The position numbers and the translations under genes are program-made. A stretch of 21,070 bases of DNA, taken from IMG/VR virus record IMGVR_UViG_3300010155_003575, positions 1 through 21,070 of that record; one strand, written 5' to 3'. Numbering within the stretch: position 1 is the first letter of the stretch; every line of letters begins with the position of its first letter. Below are positions 10,555 through 15,818 of the stretch, in pieces. Origin of the DNA: a virus. The notes below the pieces were generated by a model. The model was not told where the DNA came from and ran no database searches. It saw nothing but the letters and a program-made list of their open reading frames with translations.

Positions 10555-11682
10555 TCATTCGGGATCTGCGTAAAATTGATCTGCAGAACCCTCGCGCCTA
10601 TCAAACTTCTGGACAACTTCTTCGTCCATAAGTTCCAAGACATTCTTTCTAAATTCTTCATCAGATTGTATTAGATCTGCCCATTTTGATGGCTGAAACT
10701 TTTTCTCGTATCCGTCGGCCATTTTCAGAGTGTACCATGCACCAGCACTAGTCATACACTCTGAACCCTTCACAGCATCAAACCATGATTCTTCGTCACG
10801 AATGCCAACATCTTCGGTCCCCCACAAAATGCGGAAGGCGCAATTGCGTCCTTGCGTGCCGAATCGTGATTTCTCGATCTTTACCTTAACCTCTGAACCA
10901 ATGCGAAAGCCCTTAGCATCCTCAATAAACGCAGATTTTGCCTTTCTGCCTGTGAGCCAGATCCGCAATGAATACGAATAGTGTAGCGCCTTGCCTCCGG
11001 GGGTCATGTATGGCGTCGTCATCGCAATAATACGTGCGTTCGGGCCGCTTGGAATATTCGTCTTCAACTGGTTGAGAACGAGCAGTGTTGCTTGTTTATC
11101 GGCGATAGGGATCACCAGTTTTGACATTCCCTTTGCAAGAATGCGTGCTTTCACGGCCATCGACGACTGTGGGTTGAAGTCCCCTTCAACGTCGGAAATT
11201 GACGGCGTAAATGCCAATGAATCCCAGATAAACAATAGCTGATCTTCGGATGCTCCAAGTAGTTCTTCTATGGTTTCTAGTACAAACTCTACGGACGTCG
11301 CCTGGATGTACATTAAGCGACCTAGATCGCATCCTGCTCGCTCCAAAAAGTCAGGGTCAATGGCTGACTCAGAATCGAAGTAGACGACAAGCTTGCCCTG
11401 TTTCTGGGCGTTTGCGGCGATCTGCGCTGCCATATATGACTTACCTGTGCTGGTCAATCCAGCCAGTTCAGACACCTTGCCGACCGGGATCCCGGCGACT
11501 CGGCCCTTGCATATAATACTATCAAGCCAACGAGAGCCTGTGGATATCCATTCCTTTACTTCGGTTGGATTTGTGCCCGTCAGATCGTGAGCAACGTTGC
11601 GGCCGGCCTTCTTGTTTACAAGATTCATCAAATCTTGCATCGATACCCGGCCAGGCTTGGGTTGTTTGGCTTTTCTCGCCAT
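10555..11682 (-). CDS. RecA/UvsX-type recombinase
   Basis: This 375-residue protein should form ATP-dependent filaments on single-stranded DNA and carry out strand exchange for recombination-dependent replication and repair. The Walker A motif is G75-L-T-S-T-G-K-S82, followed by the strand VVYFDSE (99-105), typical of RecA/UvsX. The Walker B strand is LLFIWDS, with D154. LVLNQLK matches the conserved RecA glutamine switch region, and the PGGKALHYSYSLRIWLT block matches the RecA segment after loop 2. The N-terminus is basic and the C-terminus acidic, as in RecA. The ATG follows an AAGGAGG site. Immediately upstream is the terminator/pseudoknot element (11694-11737), so expression probably depends on read-through from ssb. 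Whether it is closer to bacterial RecA or T4 UvsX needs a tree. Confidence 0.93.
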   Translation of the reverse strand: MARKAKQPKPGRVSMQDLMNLVNKKAGRNVAHDLTGTNPTEVKEWISTGSRWLDSIICKGRVAGIPVGKVSELAGLTSTGKSYMAAQIAANAQKQGKLVVYFDSESAIDPDFLERAGCDLGRLMYIQATSVEFVLETIEELLGASEDQLLFIWDSLAFTPSISDVEGDFNPQSSMAVKARILAKGMSKLVIPIADKQATLLVLNQLKTNIPSGPNARIIAMTTPYMTPGGKALHYSYSLRIWLTGRKAKSAFIEDAKGFRIGSEVKVKIEKSRFGTQGRNCAFRILWGTEDVGIRDEESWFDAVKGSECMTSAGAWYTLKMADGYEKKFQPSKWADLIQSDEEFRKNVLELMDEEVVQKFDRREGSADQFYADPE

Positions 11683-11693
11683 TATGCCTCCTT

Positions 11694-11737
11694 AAAAAAT
11701 GCGGCACCCTATTTTCTCGACCGGGGTGCCATCGGTC
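11694..11737 (-). terminator. Intrinsic terminator that can also fold as an H-type pseudoknot, between ssb and recA
   Basis: On the minus strand GGCACCC (11724-11730) pairs with GGGTGCC (11703-11709), 7 pairs without mismatch, followed by GCA and six T (11694-11699): an intrinsic terminator form. A second stem is possible. GACCG (11733-11737) pairs with CGGTC (11719-11723), which lies in the loop of the first, while the first stem's 5' arm lies in the loop of the second. The two stems together make a classic H-type pseudoknot: stems of 5 and 7 pairs, a 2-base first loop, no bases between the stems and a 9-base A-rich third loop (GAGAAAATA). The recA ribosome site begins directly after the T run. 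The base pairing is seen; the function is inferred. Confidence 0.6.
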
Positions 11738-11748
11738 ACGCGCAAACC

Positions 11749-12513
11749 TTATTTAGTTGCCATTAACTCGTCAAACGCTCGGTCCACATCGCTCTTACCA
11801 TTTCCGTATTTAGTGGTTTCCGTCGAGCGTGACTCTGCACTTCCATTGTCAGCAAGCTGTTCATCCAGAATTGCATCGATTTGCTTTGAAGTATGACGCT
11901 CGAAAAGAGAATCAAAATCGGGAATACTATCAAGGAGGGCGGGGATAGCTTCCTTATCCTCCAAAAGCGGGGAAGTGTTTCGGCGCATCTTAAGGTTCGT
12001 CTGCGGGTATGCCCCAGGCGTGGTGGGCTTCGTATAGGTTAGGGCAATGTCGGTCCCTTCGAGGGGATCTGTAATGTCCCCATAATCTGGATCTAAAATG
12101 TAGCCTAGAAGATTCTCGTAGGCGCGCTTTCCATAGCCATACATCTTGGCTCCCTCATCTTCTCGGCCGCGAACAACGACCGGAGAGAAATAGCGTGCAC
12201 GAACGAATAGAGACTTAGCAAGCTTCTTGCTTTCTTCATCGTTGTTGCCTGTACCTTCCTTCCACAAAGCAGAAGCAAACTCGCAAATCGAACAGTTTTC
12301 TCCAAAGTTGCGCTTTGGGCAAACGATTCCTCCGCGATGTTCTCCTACATTATAGTGGAAATACATTTCCTTAAGCGGATCGCCATCGGGCGATGGGACG
12401 ATTCGAATGTCCTGATCCCCTTCATCTGGTCTAAACCAGGGCGATTGCTCCTTATCATACTCGCCGCGTAGTTGAGCGAGCTTCTTTCTCATTAGTTCCA
12501 TGTTGATTGACAT
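11749..12513 (-). CDS. Single-stranded DNA-binding protein, T4 gp32-like
   Basis: This 254-residue protein should coat single-stranded DNA at forks and recombination intermediates and work with the recombinase, helicase and polymerase. The gp32 zinc site is visible: H53, C65, C74 and C77, with spacings (11, 8 and 2 residues between ligands) close to T4 gp32 (12, 9 and 2). The N-terminal 20 residues contain a basic segment (MRKKLAQLR), where gp32 has its cooperativity domain. The C-terminal third is rich in acidic residues and serine, as in the acidic protein-interaction tail of gp32, although the last residues are not strongly acidic. The ATG follows AAGGAG, with an A-rich spacer. The gene follows the tubulin-like gene and precedes recA; a hairpin leader before it suggests autogenous control as in T4. 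Confidence 0.88.
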   Translation of the reverse strand: MSINMELMRKKLAQLRGEYDKEQSPWFRPDEGDQDIRIVPSPDGDPLKEMYFHYNVGEHRGGIVCPKRNFGENCSICEFASALWKEGTGNNDEESKKLAKSLFVRARYFSPVVVRGREDEGAKMYGYGKRAYENLLGYILDPDYGDITDPLEGTDIALTYTKPTTPGAYPQTNLKMRRNTSPLLEDKEAIPALLDSIPDFDSLFERHTSKQIDAILDEQLADNGSAESRSTETTKYGNGKSDVDRAFDELMATK

Positions 12514-12544: not shown

Positions 12545-12565
12545 ATATCAAGCTTTCCTTGATAT
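12545..12565 (-). promoter_or_regulatory. Hairpin in the ssb leader, candidate autoregulatory element
   Basis: ATATCAAG (12558-12565, minus-strand reading) and CTTGATAT (12545-12552) form a perfect 8-pair stem around the loop GAAAG. About 30 bases of A-rich sequence with no evident pairing follow, containing the AAGGAG ribosome site and the ssb ATG. This matches the known T4 gene 32 arrangement, a folded nucleation site then an unstructured leader that gp32 coats. The stem is seen; the regulatory role is inference by analogy. Confidence 0.5.
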
Positions 12566-12573
12566 CTAATGTG

Positions 12574-13437
12574 TCACTCTTGCTCTAGCCTGTCAAGAGT
12601 TTTTTGTTGTTGTATCGTGTTTGTGTGGGCCACGACGTACCCAAAATCATTGTGCGGTGTTTCGTATATTGCATAAGAAATTTTACGAAAAGCATTTGAA
12701 GGCTTCTTCTTTAGCGCGTCCACAATCTTTCTATGCAATGTGCCCTCCTGGGCCAATCTTTCTTCATTTATACATAAATAATAACATAAATCTCGCTGAA
12801 CGTCAAGCTTAAAAAGCCAATTTTCTTCTAAATTTTTTGTATCGAGGACTCCAATACTTCTAATGCGATTCATCACCGCGGGGCGCGCGACTTGGCCGAT
12901 CTCGGGCTCCGTGTGGGCAAAATAATTCAAATAATGAACTGATGAGAAAATCGAATCATTTATAATATCGTAGTACTTCTTTATTGGTACATTTCCAAGA
13001 ATTTTTTCAATCTCTTGATTAGAAAAAACCGTAATTGACTGAAATAGTCCAGAACGAGCGTATTCCTGTAAAACTCCAAAAGTTATATTTTCCATTGTCC
13101 GGGGGACTCCCGTCAACAGGCCAATATCTGGTTTAATATAAAAAACTTCTATCTTCTTTTCTTTTATTTGTTGTAATATGCCCAACGAATAATTTGAACT
13201 ATACGAAGATCCAATAATAAAAACTTGAACATGGTCCTTCAGATCTTTAAAAAAATTAGATAAATCAGGAATATTGTTTTCATATTCTTCCGGATCTTCA
13301 AATGCTTTGAGCTTAAACTTTCTCGATGTTTTTCTTTTAATGCTGTTGTTCAATAGATATACATCGTACTGCGAGATTTCACCAAACTTCTCGGCAATCG
13401 CGGAGGCTCCATTACCAATGCCCACAATAGATATCAT
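12574..13437 (-). CDS. Putative degenerate FtsZ/tubulin-fold protein in the replication operon
   Basis: This 287-residue protein follows the FtsZ layout without its signatures. ISIVGIGNGASAIAEKF (2-18) resembles the FtsZ first strand and T1 loop. VQVFIIG (70-76) and then SSYSSNYSLGILQQI stand where FtsZ has its strand and GGGTGTG loop. IEVFYIKPD (96-104) matches the next strand (AVVTKPF-like). ARSGLFQSITVFSN (127-140) matches the GI-x-x-L-x-x-x-VDTLIVIPN block, and the helix at about 152-173 matches the DAF-x-x-AD-x-VL helix. The GTP-binding glycine loop and the catalytic NxDxxD (T7) loop are missing, so GTP hydrolysis is unlikely. The C-terminal 110 residues could be the second FtsZ-like domain. 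The start overlaps the polymerase stop as ATGA. A plain Rossmann-fold protein is the main alternative. Confidence 0.5.
   Translation of the reverse strand: MISIVGIGNGASAIAEKFGEISQYDVYLLNNSIKRKTSRKFKLKAFEDPEEYENNIPDLSNFFKDLKDHVQVFIIGSSYSSNYSLGILQQIKEKKIEVFYIKPDIGLLTGVPRTMENITFGVLQEYARSGLFQSITVFSNQEIEKILGNVPIKKYYDIINDSIFSSVHYLNYFAHTEPEIGQVARPAVMNRIRSIGVLDTKNLEENWLFKLDVQRDLCYYLCINEERLAQEGTLHRKIVDALKKKPSNAFRKISYAIYETPHNDFGYVVAHTNTIQQQKTLDRLEQE
12576..12606 (+). terminator. Possible plus-strand terminator-like hairpin
   Basis: On the plus strand ACTCTTG (12576-12582) pairs with CAAGAGT (12594-12600), and six T follow directly. It would stop transcripts running antisense to the replication genes. 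The stem is short, no plus-strand gene is seen, and the same bases encode the C-terminus of the tubulin-like protein, so it may be chance. Confidence 0.25.
12778..12806 (-). promoter_or_regulatory. Sigma70-like promoter inside the tubulin-like gene, upstream of ssb
   Basis: The minus strand has TTGACG (12801-12806), a 17-base spacer and TATTAT (12778-12783); each box matches 5/6. A transcript from here would include the ssb leader hairpin (12545-12565), which fits post-transcriptional control of ssb. Confidence 0.5.
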
Positions 13438-14621
13438 AGCGACATCCTCTCAAGGTCATAATAGTCGTTGCCGGCACTTAAATTTACCATGAAATTGCCT
13501 AGTTTATTTTGTTCAAATGTATCTCTAATCTCAATCACCATATCACGCTCTTCATCAGCAAAGTCTATTACAATCTCGTCATGAACTATGTGTGAAATAA
13601 ATGACTTCTTGCCTTCTAGCATCGCGTCTATTATTGTGGCGCGCTCTAGTACAAGATCGGCGGTGGTGCTTTGAATTAAATAATTGAACGCTCTTCGCTG
13701 ATCGACTTTGATGCTTCTCCCAAATACAGTATAAATGTAACCACCCTTGTAGTATTTGTCAAGTATTTTTTTGCGATCATAATAATTGGTTTTAATAACG
13801 TCTGAGTCTGGGTTGTATAACCATGCGAAGAACATGCTCTTCGCTTCTTCTCGATGGATTTCGGGTTTTTTAAACACGTTATGAATGTTCCATTCGTGAA
13901 TGTCAGTCTCTGGTTGTTCTTGCTCCGAAAGCGCTAGTAACGTGCGCACTTCAGCGCCATTGTAATCTAAAGATAAAAACCAGTCATTATGGGGCTTTAT
14001 TAGCTTTCTTAACTCTTTCTTGAGGGTAAGAATCGGAAAAGAATTTGGTCGAGTTGTTAAACGACCCGTAACCGTCCCAAAAAGATTATAGTCTATATGT
14101 TGAGGGTGATTAAGAATTTTTTTAGCTTCGCGGCGCGTGCCAGTACTTAAAAACAATTTTTTGCTATCTTCGGCATTTATATTAAGATTTTGATATTTGA
14201 TCTTAAACAGCAATTTTTGCATTTTTTCCAAAAACTCATAGTTTTTTGGTTTTTCGTAATTTTCAAAGACGTGCTTAGTAATTTGGTTTTTGATGTCACA
14301 CAATTTTACAAGGAAATCGTGCGGCACTAAATCAAAGAAGCAGTGTTCTCGAAAATTTAATTTTGCTATCTCAAATGATTTTCTATAAGCAACAAACTTT
14401 TTTCTAACTTTTTGCCACTCATCTTTTAAATGATTAGGGCATACCTCATCCAAAGAAAGCCCTCCCGCATAGAGGAAACCATAATCAATCTCTTTATCGC
14501 TTAAAGAGCCTGAGTAGTTCCATGTTTTTGTAAGTTTATGGGCCGGTGGATCAAAATAGAGTGCCCCATCAACATATACACCAAAACATTGATTTTTGTC
14601 ATCAAGTGTTTGAAAAATCAT
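13434..14621 (-). CDS. Compact family-A (PolA-type) DNA polymerase lacking exonuclease domains
   Basis: This 395-residue protein holds a full set of polymerase I catalytic motifs. The TGRLT block near 190 is conserved. Motif A is D219-YNGAEVR, with the glutamate corresponding to E. coli E710. In motif B, R257, K261, F265 and Y269 match E. coli R754, K758, F762 and Y766, but N761 and G763 are replaced. R-x-x-x-N-x-x-x-Q followed by STTAD matches the R841/N845/Q849 region, and motif C is H347-D348-E349. The spacings A to B (38 versus 49) and B to C (86 versus 123) are much shorter than in E. coli, so fingers and tip are trimmed. The first 180 residues are a short thumb-like region. No 3'-5' or 5'-3' exonuclease is fused. 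Rhodothermus phage RM378 is a known case where exonuclease and polymerase parts are separate genes. The start abuts the previous stop (TAAATG). Confidence 0.88.
   Translation of the reverse strand: MIFQTLDDKNQCFGVYVDGALYFDPPAHKLTKTWNYSGSLSDKEIDYGFLYAGGLSLDEVCPNHLKDEWQKVRKKFVAYRKSFEIAKLNFREHCFFDLVPHDFLVKLCDIKNQITKHVFENYEKPKNYEFLEKMQKLLFKIKYQNLNINAEDSKKLFLSTGTRREAKKILNHPQHIDYNLFGTVTGRLTTRPNSFPILTLKKELRKLIKPHNDWFLSLDYNGAEVRTLLALSEQEQPETDIHEWNIHNVFKKPEIHREEAKSMFFAWLYNPDSDVIKTNYYDRKKILDKYYKGGYIYTVFGRSIKVDQRRAFNYLIQSTTADLVLERATIIDAMLEGKKSFISHIVHDEIVIDFADEERDMVIEIRDTFEQNKLGNFMVNLSAGNDYYDLERMSL
13734..13762 (-). promoter_or_regulatory. Weak candidate promoter inside the polymerase gene
   Basis: The minus strand has TTGACA (13757-13762), a 17-base spacer and TACATT (13734-13739, 4/6). 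It would serve the tubulin-like gene and ssb. The weak -10 box makes it doubtful. Confidence 0.3.
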
Positions 14622-15818
14622 TTAGCCAGCCAGAATTCTACGTCTCTCTATAATATAATTTATTGCGCCGCTATAGTCAAGCGTTTTATTGAGAATTTTT
14701 TCAAAAGAATTTAAAGCCTGAATTAAATCCATTTCTGCCAAACTAAGACAATCACTTATTAGGCGGTTTTTCTGACCGTCAGTAAACTGTGACTCCTCTT
14801 CAAAAAATCTGATTCTACAATAAAGTTCCAAAAAATATAAATCGTCATATCTTATAAAATATGATTCTAAATTGTAATTTGTGGGTGTGGTCGTTTTTGC
14901 AATAAAGCCTCCATTTTCACACACTTCATGTTCATATATTCTTAGATCTTTTATGGTGTTGTATAAATCAAGTAAAATATATTTAAATCTGCCGAAATAT
15001 TTTAAATGGGCCTTTTCATAAGCAACATTTAAGATAAGATCGGTTGTATTCATTCTATACTCGCCGGCATACTCCAGCATTGCTGGGCCCGCCAGATCTG
15101 CCACAATTCTCCACGGCATTTTAACATCTACCATGAATCCATAAGAATTGCATGCATTTACAAAAAATTCCCAGTTAGGGCTGGCAATAAATTGTTTGAT
15201 TTTTTCAAAATCATTGTCTGCTTGCAAATCAGCAATCTCTACTGCGAGGCCCGACACATTTATGGGGCAGAAGGTGCTTTTAACAAATGCGGGAAATGTA
15301 AATGGTATTTTTTTGCTAACTGTTTCTAAGGTCGGTATTAAGTTTAAAATAAATTCATCAAAATTTCTAATTTTAGGGTTTGCTCCTTTAAGTGTGCTCG
15401 ATAAACCTGTTTTAACTTCAGCCAAGTGTTCATCGTATAATTTCTTGGGATTTACATAAGCTTTATGTACTTTTAGGCTAGACAAGAAAGTATCCGTCGT
15501 GCTTATTTTACCTGTTAGTGCACACTTATCAAATTGCTGGGAGAGCTTTTCAAATGCATCCACTACAAAATTTAAAGCCGCAAGAGGTTCTTTTGATTCC
15601 GAGGCGGATGAAAAATTTTTTAATTGGGAAGTGGGCCCATATGATAAAACCATTGGTTCAAAATTCCTGGTGACTCGGCCATATAGTTGTTTTTCTGCAA
15701 AATTAAAATCCATCAAATTAGTATATACATAACCGTGGCATGTCGTCAAGTAAACCATTCTTTTATAAAATAGTTCTCGGCTAGTCTCTTCGTTACTTTC
15801 TACATATCCAAATGACAT
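14622..15818 (-). CDS. Conserved-looking phage protein of unknown function (398 aa)
   Basis: The ATG at 15818 follows a full AGGAGGA site 17 bases after the stop of the 1091-aa virion gene. The protein is acidic to neutral, rich in Tyr, Phe and Asn, without signal peptide or membrane helix. A notable segment near residue 225 reads YGFMVDVKMPWRIVADLAGP. From memory, similar G-F-x-x-D-x-x-x-PWR-x-VADL strings occur in uncharacterised proteins of marine myoviruses, but I could not check this. The second half is helical-looking, with many aromatic residues. Its stop directly abuts the polymerase start (TAAATG), so it could pair with the polymerase, yet a tail or virion role is equally likely from the upstream genes. 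I see no nuclease motif (no DEDD-type exonuclease pattern), so it is probably not the missing proofreading subunit. Confidence 0.6.
   Translation of the reverse strand: MSFGYVESNEETSRELFYKRMVYLTTCHGYVYTNLMDFNFAEKQLYGRVTRNFEPMVLSYGPTSQLKNFSSASESKEPLAALNFVVDAFEKLSQQFDKCALTGKISTTDTFLSSLKVHKAYVNPKKLYDEHLAEVKTGLSSTLKGANPKIRNFDEFILNLIPTLETVSKKIPFTFPAFVKSTFCPINVSGLAVEIADLQADNDFEKIKQFIASPNWEFFVNACNSYGFMVDVKMPWRIVADLAGPAMLEYAGEYRMNTTDLILNVAYEKAHLKYFGRFKYILLDLYNTIKDLRIYEHEVCENGGFIAKTTTPTNYNLESYFIRYDDLYFLELYCRIRFFEEESQFTDGQKNRLISDCLSLAEMDLIQALNSFEKILNKTLDYSGAINYIIERRRILAG
14652..14680 (-). promoter_or_regulatory. Sigma70-like promoter upstream of the family-A polymerase gene
   Basis: The minus strand has TTGACT (14675-14680), a 17-base spacer and TATATT (14652-14657); each box matches 5/6. 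It sits in the last codons of the 398-aa gene, with initiation about 25 bases before the polymerase ATG. It is the natural start for the replication operon. Confidence 0.6.
15720..15749 (-). promoter_or_regulatory. Candidate promoter early in the 398-aa gene
   Basis: The minus strand has TTGACG (15744-15749), an 18-base spacer and TATACT (15720-15725); a 16-base spacer gives TATATA instead. It lies about 70 bases inside the coding region and is the first such element after the virion genes, so it may mark the start of the replication transcript. Confidence 0.4.

Follow-up and report, generated by a model that had tools for sequence, protein, structure and literature searches.

The T2/T4 gene 32 pseudoknot is bound by gp32 and is located 67 nt ahead of the gene 32 start; its fold has been described, and the T4 gene 32 mRNA has been reported as the most stable T4 mRNA (PMC3014915).

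Here we analyze a pseudoknot located between genes for a gp32-like single-stranded DNA-binding protein (ssb) and a recombinase (recA) in the window, i.e., the whole stretch of viral DNA under analysis (21,070 nt). A search against Rfam 15 produced no match in the window and, when 13 further loci were searched to weak E-values, none at the element; a search of the open-access literature did not find this pseudoknot element described. Apparently, it is a member of a phage pseudoknot family that has not been described previously, a covariation-backed RNA element without an Rfam match that occurs across uncultured phages from marine and other environments, in a gut phage record and in a Xanthomonas phage.

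Phage RNA offers further points of comparison. Strong intrinsic (rho-independent) terminators stand behind T4 gene 32 and T7 gene 10, and mRNA 3' ends can be stabilized by structured elements such as REP-like hairpins and the RNase III sites of T7. The stems of the T2/T4 gene 32 pseudoknot are similar in size to those of the window element.

The pseudoknot between ssb and recA

The genes flanking the pseudoknot are all encoded on the minus strand (Table 1). Downstream of the ssb stop codon, which lies 11 nt before S1, the RNA reads, 5' to 3', GGUUUGCGCGU GACCG AU GGCACCC CGGUC GAGAAAAUA GGGUGCC GCAUUUUUU AAGGAGG CAUA AUG, the last triplet being the recA start. The initial annotation had placed here a pseudoknot with interlocked stems of 5 and 7 pairs and loops of 2, 0 and 9 bases, and its coordinates (11694–11737, minus strand) proved exact; the element also extends, as claimed, to the recA ribosome site, with the U6 run followed by AAGGAGG and the recA start codon at 11682. 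The 66-nt gap between ssb and recA is too small for a promoter, so that recA in the window must be reached by readthrough.

The -10 box of the ssb promoter is CACATT in the window and TACATT or TATAAT in relatives. Just 3' of it sits the 8-bp hairpin, which is kept in the aligned relatives, and the inverted repeat over the -35 box is a possible operator. Given its own conserved promoter, the 5' hairpin and the 3' pseudoknot, ssb looks, as far as sequence can tell, like an mRNA unit complete in itself, structured at the 5' end and closed by a pseudoknot at the 3' end. Elsewhere in the window (13434–15818, minus strand), two adjoining reading frames of 395 and 398 aa, the first of which resembles the C-terminal part of DNA polymerase A, may represent a split gene.

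Table 1. Features of the ssb–recA region, in window coordinates
Feature	Position	Strand	Basis
recA/UvsX-like recombinase gene (phrog_97)	10555..11682	-	protein family match
Shine-Dalgarno AAGGAGG of recA	11687..11693	-	sequence
Spacer GCA and U-tract U6 (U6 = 11699-11694)	11694..11702	-	U enriched at +4..+8 in relatives
S2 3' strand GGGUGCC	11703..11709	-	sequence and covariation
L3 GAGAAAAUA, A-rich, conserved ...AATA end	11710..11718	-	alignment
S1 3' strand CGGUC, L2 = 0 nt	11719..11723	-	sequence and comparison
S2 5' strand GGCACCC	11724..11730	-	sequence and covariation
L1 AU	11731..11732	-	family consensus [CAT]U
S1 5' strand GACCG	11733..11737	-	sequence; S1 compensated between lineages
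gp32-like ssDNA-binding protein gene ssb (phrog_1192)	11749..12513	-	protein family match
8-bp 5' hairpin of the ssb mRNA	12545..12565	-	7/8 pairs covary, 99.8% paired
sigma70-type ssb promoter (TTGACA, 17 nt, CACATT)	12568..12596	-	conserved in relatives
Inverted repeat over -35/spacer, ACTCTTG/CAAGAGT	12576..12600	-	conserved in aligned relatives

Taken alone, the window sequence is weak evidence for a pseudoknot. Its nested folding is not better than that of shuffled sequences (z = -0.49), the predicted minimum-energy nested fold consists of S2 alone, and strict 5 + 7 bp pseudoknots number two on the minus strand and one on the other, compared with 0.18 per shuffled 21-kb strand. The pseudoknot is considered real because it is conserved in relatives, not on the strength of single-sequence folding. 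A longer S2, formed by pairing L1 with the bases 3' of S2, was rejected: the L1 A stands opposite A, G or C and almost never opposite U, and therefore such an extension is not conserved.

Covariation and occurrence of the element

The window proteins match hundreds of relatives in uncultured phages, and the main alignment comprises 62 distinct ssb 3' regions from such relatives, picked without regard to structure. In this set, S2 is 99.3% paired, with six of its seven pairs changed on both sides, and the paired cells total 93.9% vs. 79.9% in shuffles, a value reached by none of 500 shuffles (slid controls pair at most 43%). S1 is CCG/CGG in nearly all of these regions and, because of this near invariance, was tested on its own, through a pattern scan of viral contigs in which most S1 bases were free, CCG was excluded and matches outside long reading frames were considered. 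Among the 88 non-coding matches listed, 43 have a fully Watson-Crick S1 (GCG/CGC, TCG/CGA, ACG/CGT, GGG/CCC and GAG/CTC being among the types), with about 1 in 12 expected by chance, and another 37 pair at two of three positions, mostly as GTG/CAT or GCG/CGT with one G-U. Covariation in related phages, which the initial annotation had named among the checks, is found in both stems.

In a second, independent lineage (L389–L446), typified by a small structural-type protein, the element is present in nearly all of 53 distinct 3' regions, with S2 in the form of GGCUCCC/GGGAGCC, GGCCUCC/GGAGGCC or GACUCCC/GGGAGUC. Among relatives, the S2 sequence drifts freely while the pairing stays, L1 is [CAT]U in 239 of 242 copies (some of which were found with patterns that fix L1), and L3 is A-rich in all copies; set A2 and the later sets were chosen partly by structure. 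We define the family by an S1 that has at least 3 bp and a closing G-C pair, an L1 of [CAT]U, an S2 of 7 bp, an L2 of 0 nt and an A-rich L3, and the window element conforms to this definition throughout. A diverged copy, AGCCG AU GCCCCU CGGCU GAAAUA AGGGGC, lies behind the structural-type gene of L443 and has no U-run. One phage group (L447, L452, L454, L491 and kin) has a G-U-bearing S1 (GGGGUG/CAUCCU), and likewise lacks the U-run. Of the two copies in L447, one follows a lipoprotein-like gene, and the other follows the gene of a small protein whose acidic C-terminus resembles that of SSBs.

A covariance model has matches in 57 of the 60 whole records to which it was applied, namely two named phages and 58 uncultured contigs, the longest of 194 kb. 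Marine contigs carry one to four copies each, all in one small region that spans ssb to recA where both are present. Genes for ssDNA-binding proteins from six or more protein families directly precede the pseudoknot (phrog_1192, 44, 112, 7011, 9002 and 7364, the last five from the matches listed in gene-blind pattern scans); other upstream genes among the pattern-scan matches listed encode a DUF669 protein, a major head protein (phrog_3437), a tail protein (phrog_290), unannotated structural-looking proteins, and capsid or decoration proteins of unrelated uncultured phages. SSB genes are strikingly frequent upstream of the pseudoknot in a raw tally of the copies found. Related contigs enter the counts repeatedly, and the genes called in fragments are plain open reading frames.

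Among named phages, the fold is present in one gut phage record and in a single named isolate, Xanthomonas phage XAJ2, the S1 of which is AAGCG/CGCTT. The related ssb–recA pair occurs without the element in Microcystis Mel-JY01 (8 nt between the genes) and Flavobacterium immuto (2 nt). Relatives of the head protein are also carried by Pelagibacter phages; in HTVC010P, the one examined, only 12 nt lie behind the head-protein gene, which leaves no room for the element. A search for one strict form across 84,980 genomes of bacteria and archaea yielded a single match, which lies inside the coding sequence of a dehydrogenase-like gene and was dismissed as chance.

The element follows stop codons closely: S1 begins 6–27 nt (5th–95th percentile) from the stop codon among copies taken at most 40 nt from a stop, in agreement with the unselected ssb set, and the next start led by a Shine-Dalgarno (SD) sequence is 19–387 nt away. 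Stimulation of readthrough or frameshifting was rejected, given that both the distance to the stop codon and the frame vary between relatives. In the window's lineage, the first three bases 3' of S2 are [G/A]C[A/C], not U, and U occupies +4 to +8 in 61–84% of the copies. The terminator-like U-run that the initial annotation saw behind the longer stem recurs in most copies. A G+C-rich stem with a U-tract within a few nt is present in the window (GCA-U6) and in most copies and is absent in some lineages; a four-U run is missing from the canonical-SSB lineage (0/4), the GUG/CAU lineage (0/9) and the head-protein copies.

The gene 3' of the pseudoknot is often not recA, the place being taken by small inserted genes, a tRNA-Met gene or a promoter. 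In 12 of 242 copies, the 110 nt 3' of S2 include a near-consensus sigma70 promoter (1.4% in the shuffled control); promoters 3' of the pseudoknot mostly begin 7–19 nt after S2, and some match 12/12. The promoters that follow the pseudoknot at once in L151, L206, L226, L022 and L106 coincide in part with short palindromes (e.g., CCTTGACATTCTAAATCAAGG and AACAGATATAGATCTGTT), an arrangement to be expected if inserted genes bring a repressor site of their own. A tRNA-Met gene follows the pseudoknot in 11 loci, and the U-run is usually broken there. The 5' end of the tRNA lies 6–9 nt after S2 in 10 of these loci (12 nt in the remaining one), and therefore cleavage by RNase P would yield an mRNA 3' end at almost the same place. 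In L012, L032, L037, L038, L024, L163 and L089, the tRNA-Met gene is located between the pseudoknot and recA; the 5' side of the acceptor stem is often imperfect (TTCAGGG vs. CCCTGCA). Extra copies of the pseudoknot follow extra small genes inserted between ssb and recA. Such inserts (e.g., in L019, L093 and L210) include a Thr-rich membrane protein (MEWLKS...), tiny lipoproteins, and ParB-like and other genes, and most are closed by a pseudoknot of their own, in a cassette-like arrangement.

Possible roles of the pseudoknot

The interpretation to which we give slightly better than even credence is that the pseudoknot and the U-tract form the 3' end of a phage mRNA, as a leaky terminator and/or an exonuclease barrier, so that more SSB than RecA would be made. 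Under this scenario, ssb would be transcribed from its own promoter into an mRNA with a structured 5' hairpin; once the RNA polymerase has left ssb behind, S1 would fold first and S2 next, with the U-tract following; part of the polymerases would stop about 8 nt after S2 and the rest would read on into recA; and the stacked stems together with the A-rich L3 would block 3'–5' exonucleases at the new 3' end, the net result being much SSB and less RecA. The initial annotation had suggested that the element could set the SSB:RecA ratio by termination or by protection of the ssb mRNA 3' end, and it is from the comparative evidence, which backs this suggestion, that we infer these activities. The genes upstream of the pseudoknot encode abundant proteins (SSBs, the major head protein), which we count in favor of an mRNA end; the stability reported for the T4 gene 32 mRNA is a parallel. 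A plain hairpin would suffice for termination, and the conserved pseudoknot core, for which termination does not account, counts against this interpretation, as do the non-U bases at the first three positions 3' of S2. Since several lineages without a U-run keep the fold, termination is not a function shared by all members, and what the members have in common may be protection of the 3' end or insulation of cistrons; effects on the next gene are conceivable as well, given that most copies lie in short gene gaps.

The persistence of the fold where the U-run is missing would also be accounted for by an intercistronic element that is independent of the U-tract and blocks exonucleases, directs mRNA processing, or insulates or couples translation between the stop codon and the next start, all without termination, the U-tract being an add-on in AT-rich phages. 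L453, with GGAGG almost directly 3' of S2, and the c18 and c7 lineages, in which the next start is 10–20 nt away with no clear SD, fit such a function; we consider it rather unlikely, however, in view of the strong, position-specific U-tract and the downstream promoters in the window's lineage. An operator of the T4 gp32 type, where SSB would bind the pseudoknot and repress recA (or ssb), appears improbable, despite the resemblance in fold and stem sizes to the gene 32 pseudoknot and the many SSB genes upstream. The same element stands behind capsid, decoration, tail and other structural genes as well as behind several non-homologous SSB families, its S2 is free to drift in sequence, and it lies 3' of ssb and often not before recA, while two named phages with the ssb–recA pair lack it. 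Moreover, the ssb leader, where such an operator belongs, contains a promoter and a simple 8-bp hairpin, not a pseudoknot. Because the element occurs behind many unrelated genes, as a phage 3'-end or intercistronic RNA family, we do not retain the suggestion of the initial annotation that SSB controls recA translation in the manner of gp32.

The small genes between ssb and recA in relatives, each with its own copy behind it, could be taken to suggest a cassette or recombination site at the DNA level, similar to integron attC. This seems very improbable, given that the pseudoknot topology with G-U pairs, the U-tract and the single copies behind capsid genes fit RNA better; visual inspection of the alignment showed no GTTRRRY/RYYYAAC core. 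We give hardly any credence to an ordinary terminator hairpin composed of S2 and the U-run, with fortuitous S1 pairing: such a hairpin would agree with S2 alone being the minimum-energy nested fold, but S1, when left free, is compensated (43 of the 88 non-coding matches listed against about 1 in 12, most others having one G-U).

Extending the favored interpretation of a leaky, protected mRNA end, we tentatively propose, with somewhat less than even confidence, that the conserved pseudoknot is a punctuation mark behind genes for stoichiometric proteins, preferentially non-homologous SSBs, and that a conserved host factor (RNA polymerase, ribosome or RNase) recognizes the S1/L1/L3 core, not the U-tract alone. 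If true, the mRNA-end function would explain how phages with compact operons produce SSB or capsid in large excess over the protein encoded next. Specialists would not expect a pseudoknot to serve as an mRNA end, nor its recurrent pairing with genes for non-homologous SSBs, and the element could be used as a genome-mining handle for highly expressed phage genes.

Comparison with described RNA elements

Similarly to the T2/T4 gene 32 leader pseudoknot, the present element, both stems of which covary, is an H-type pseudoknot linked to a phage SSB gene; unlike the former, it is located downstream of ssb and is also found behind non-SSB genes. With the intrinsic terminators behind abundant phage genes, it shares the place after the gene, a G+C stem followed by a U-tract, and the promoters that follow, whereas its stem is part of a conserved pseudoknot and its U-tract, absent from several lineages, begins at +4. 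REP-like hairpins and the RNase III sites of T7 are comparable as structured 3' ends between cistrons of unequal expression, which would be the case here as well; in contrast to these, the present element is not a plain hairpin but a pseudoknot in which L1, the S2 base and the A-rich L3 are conserved.
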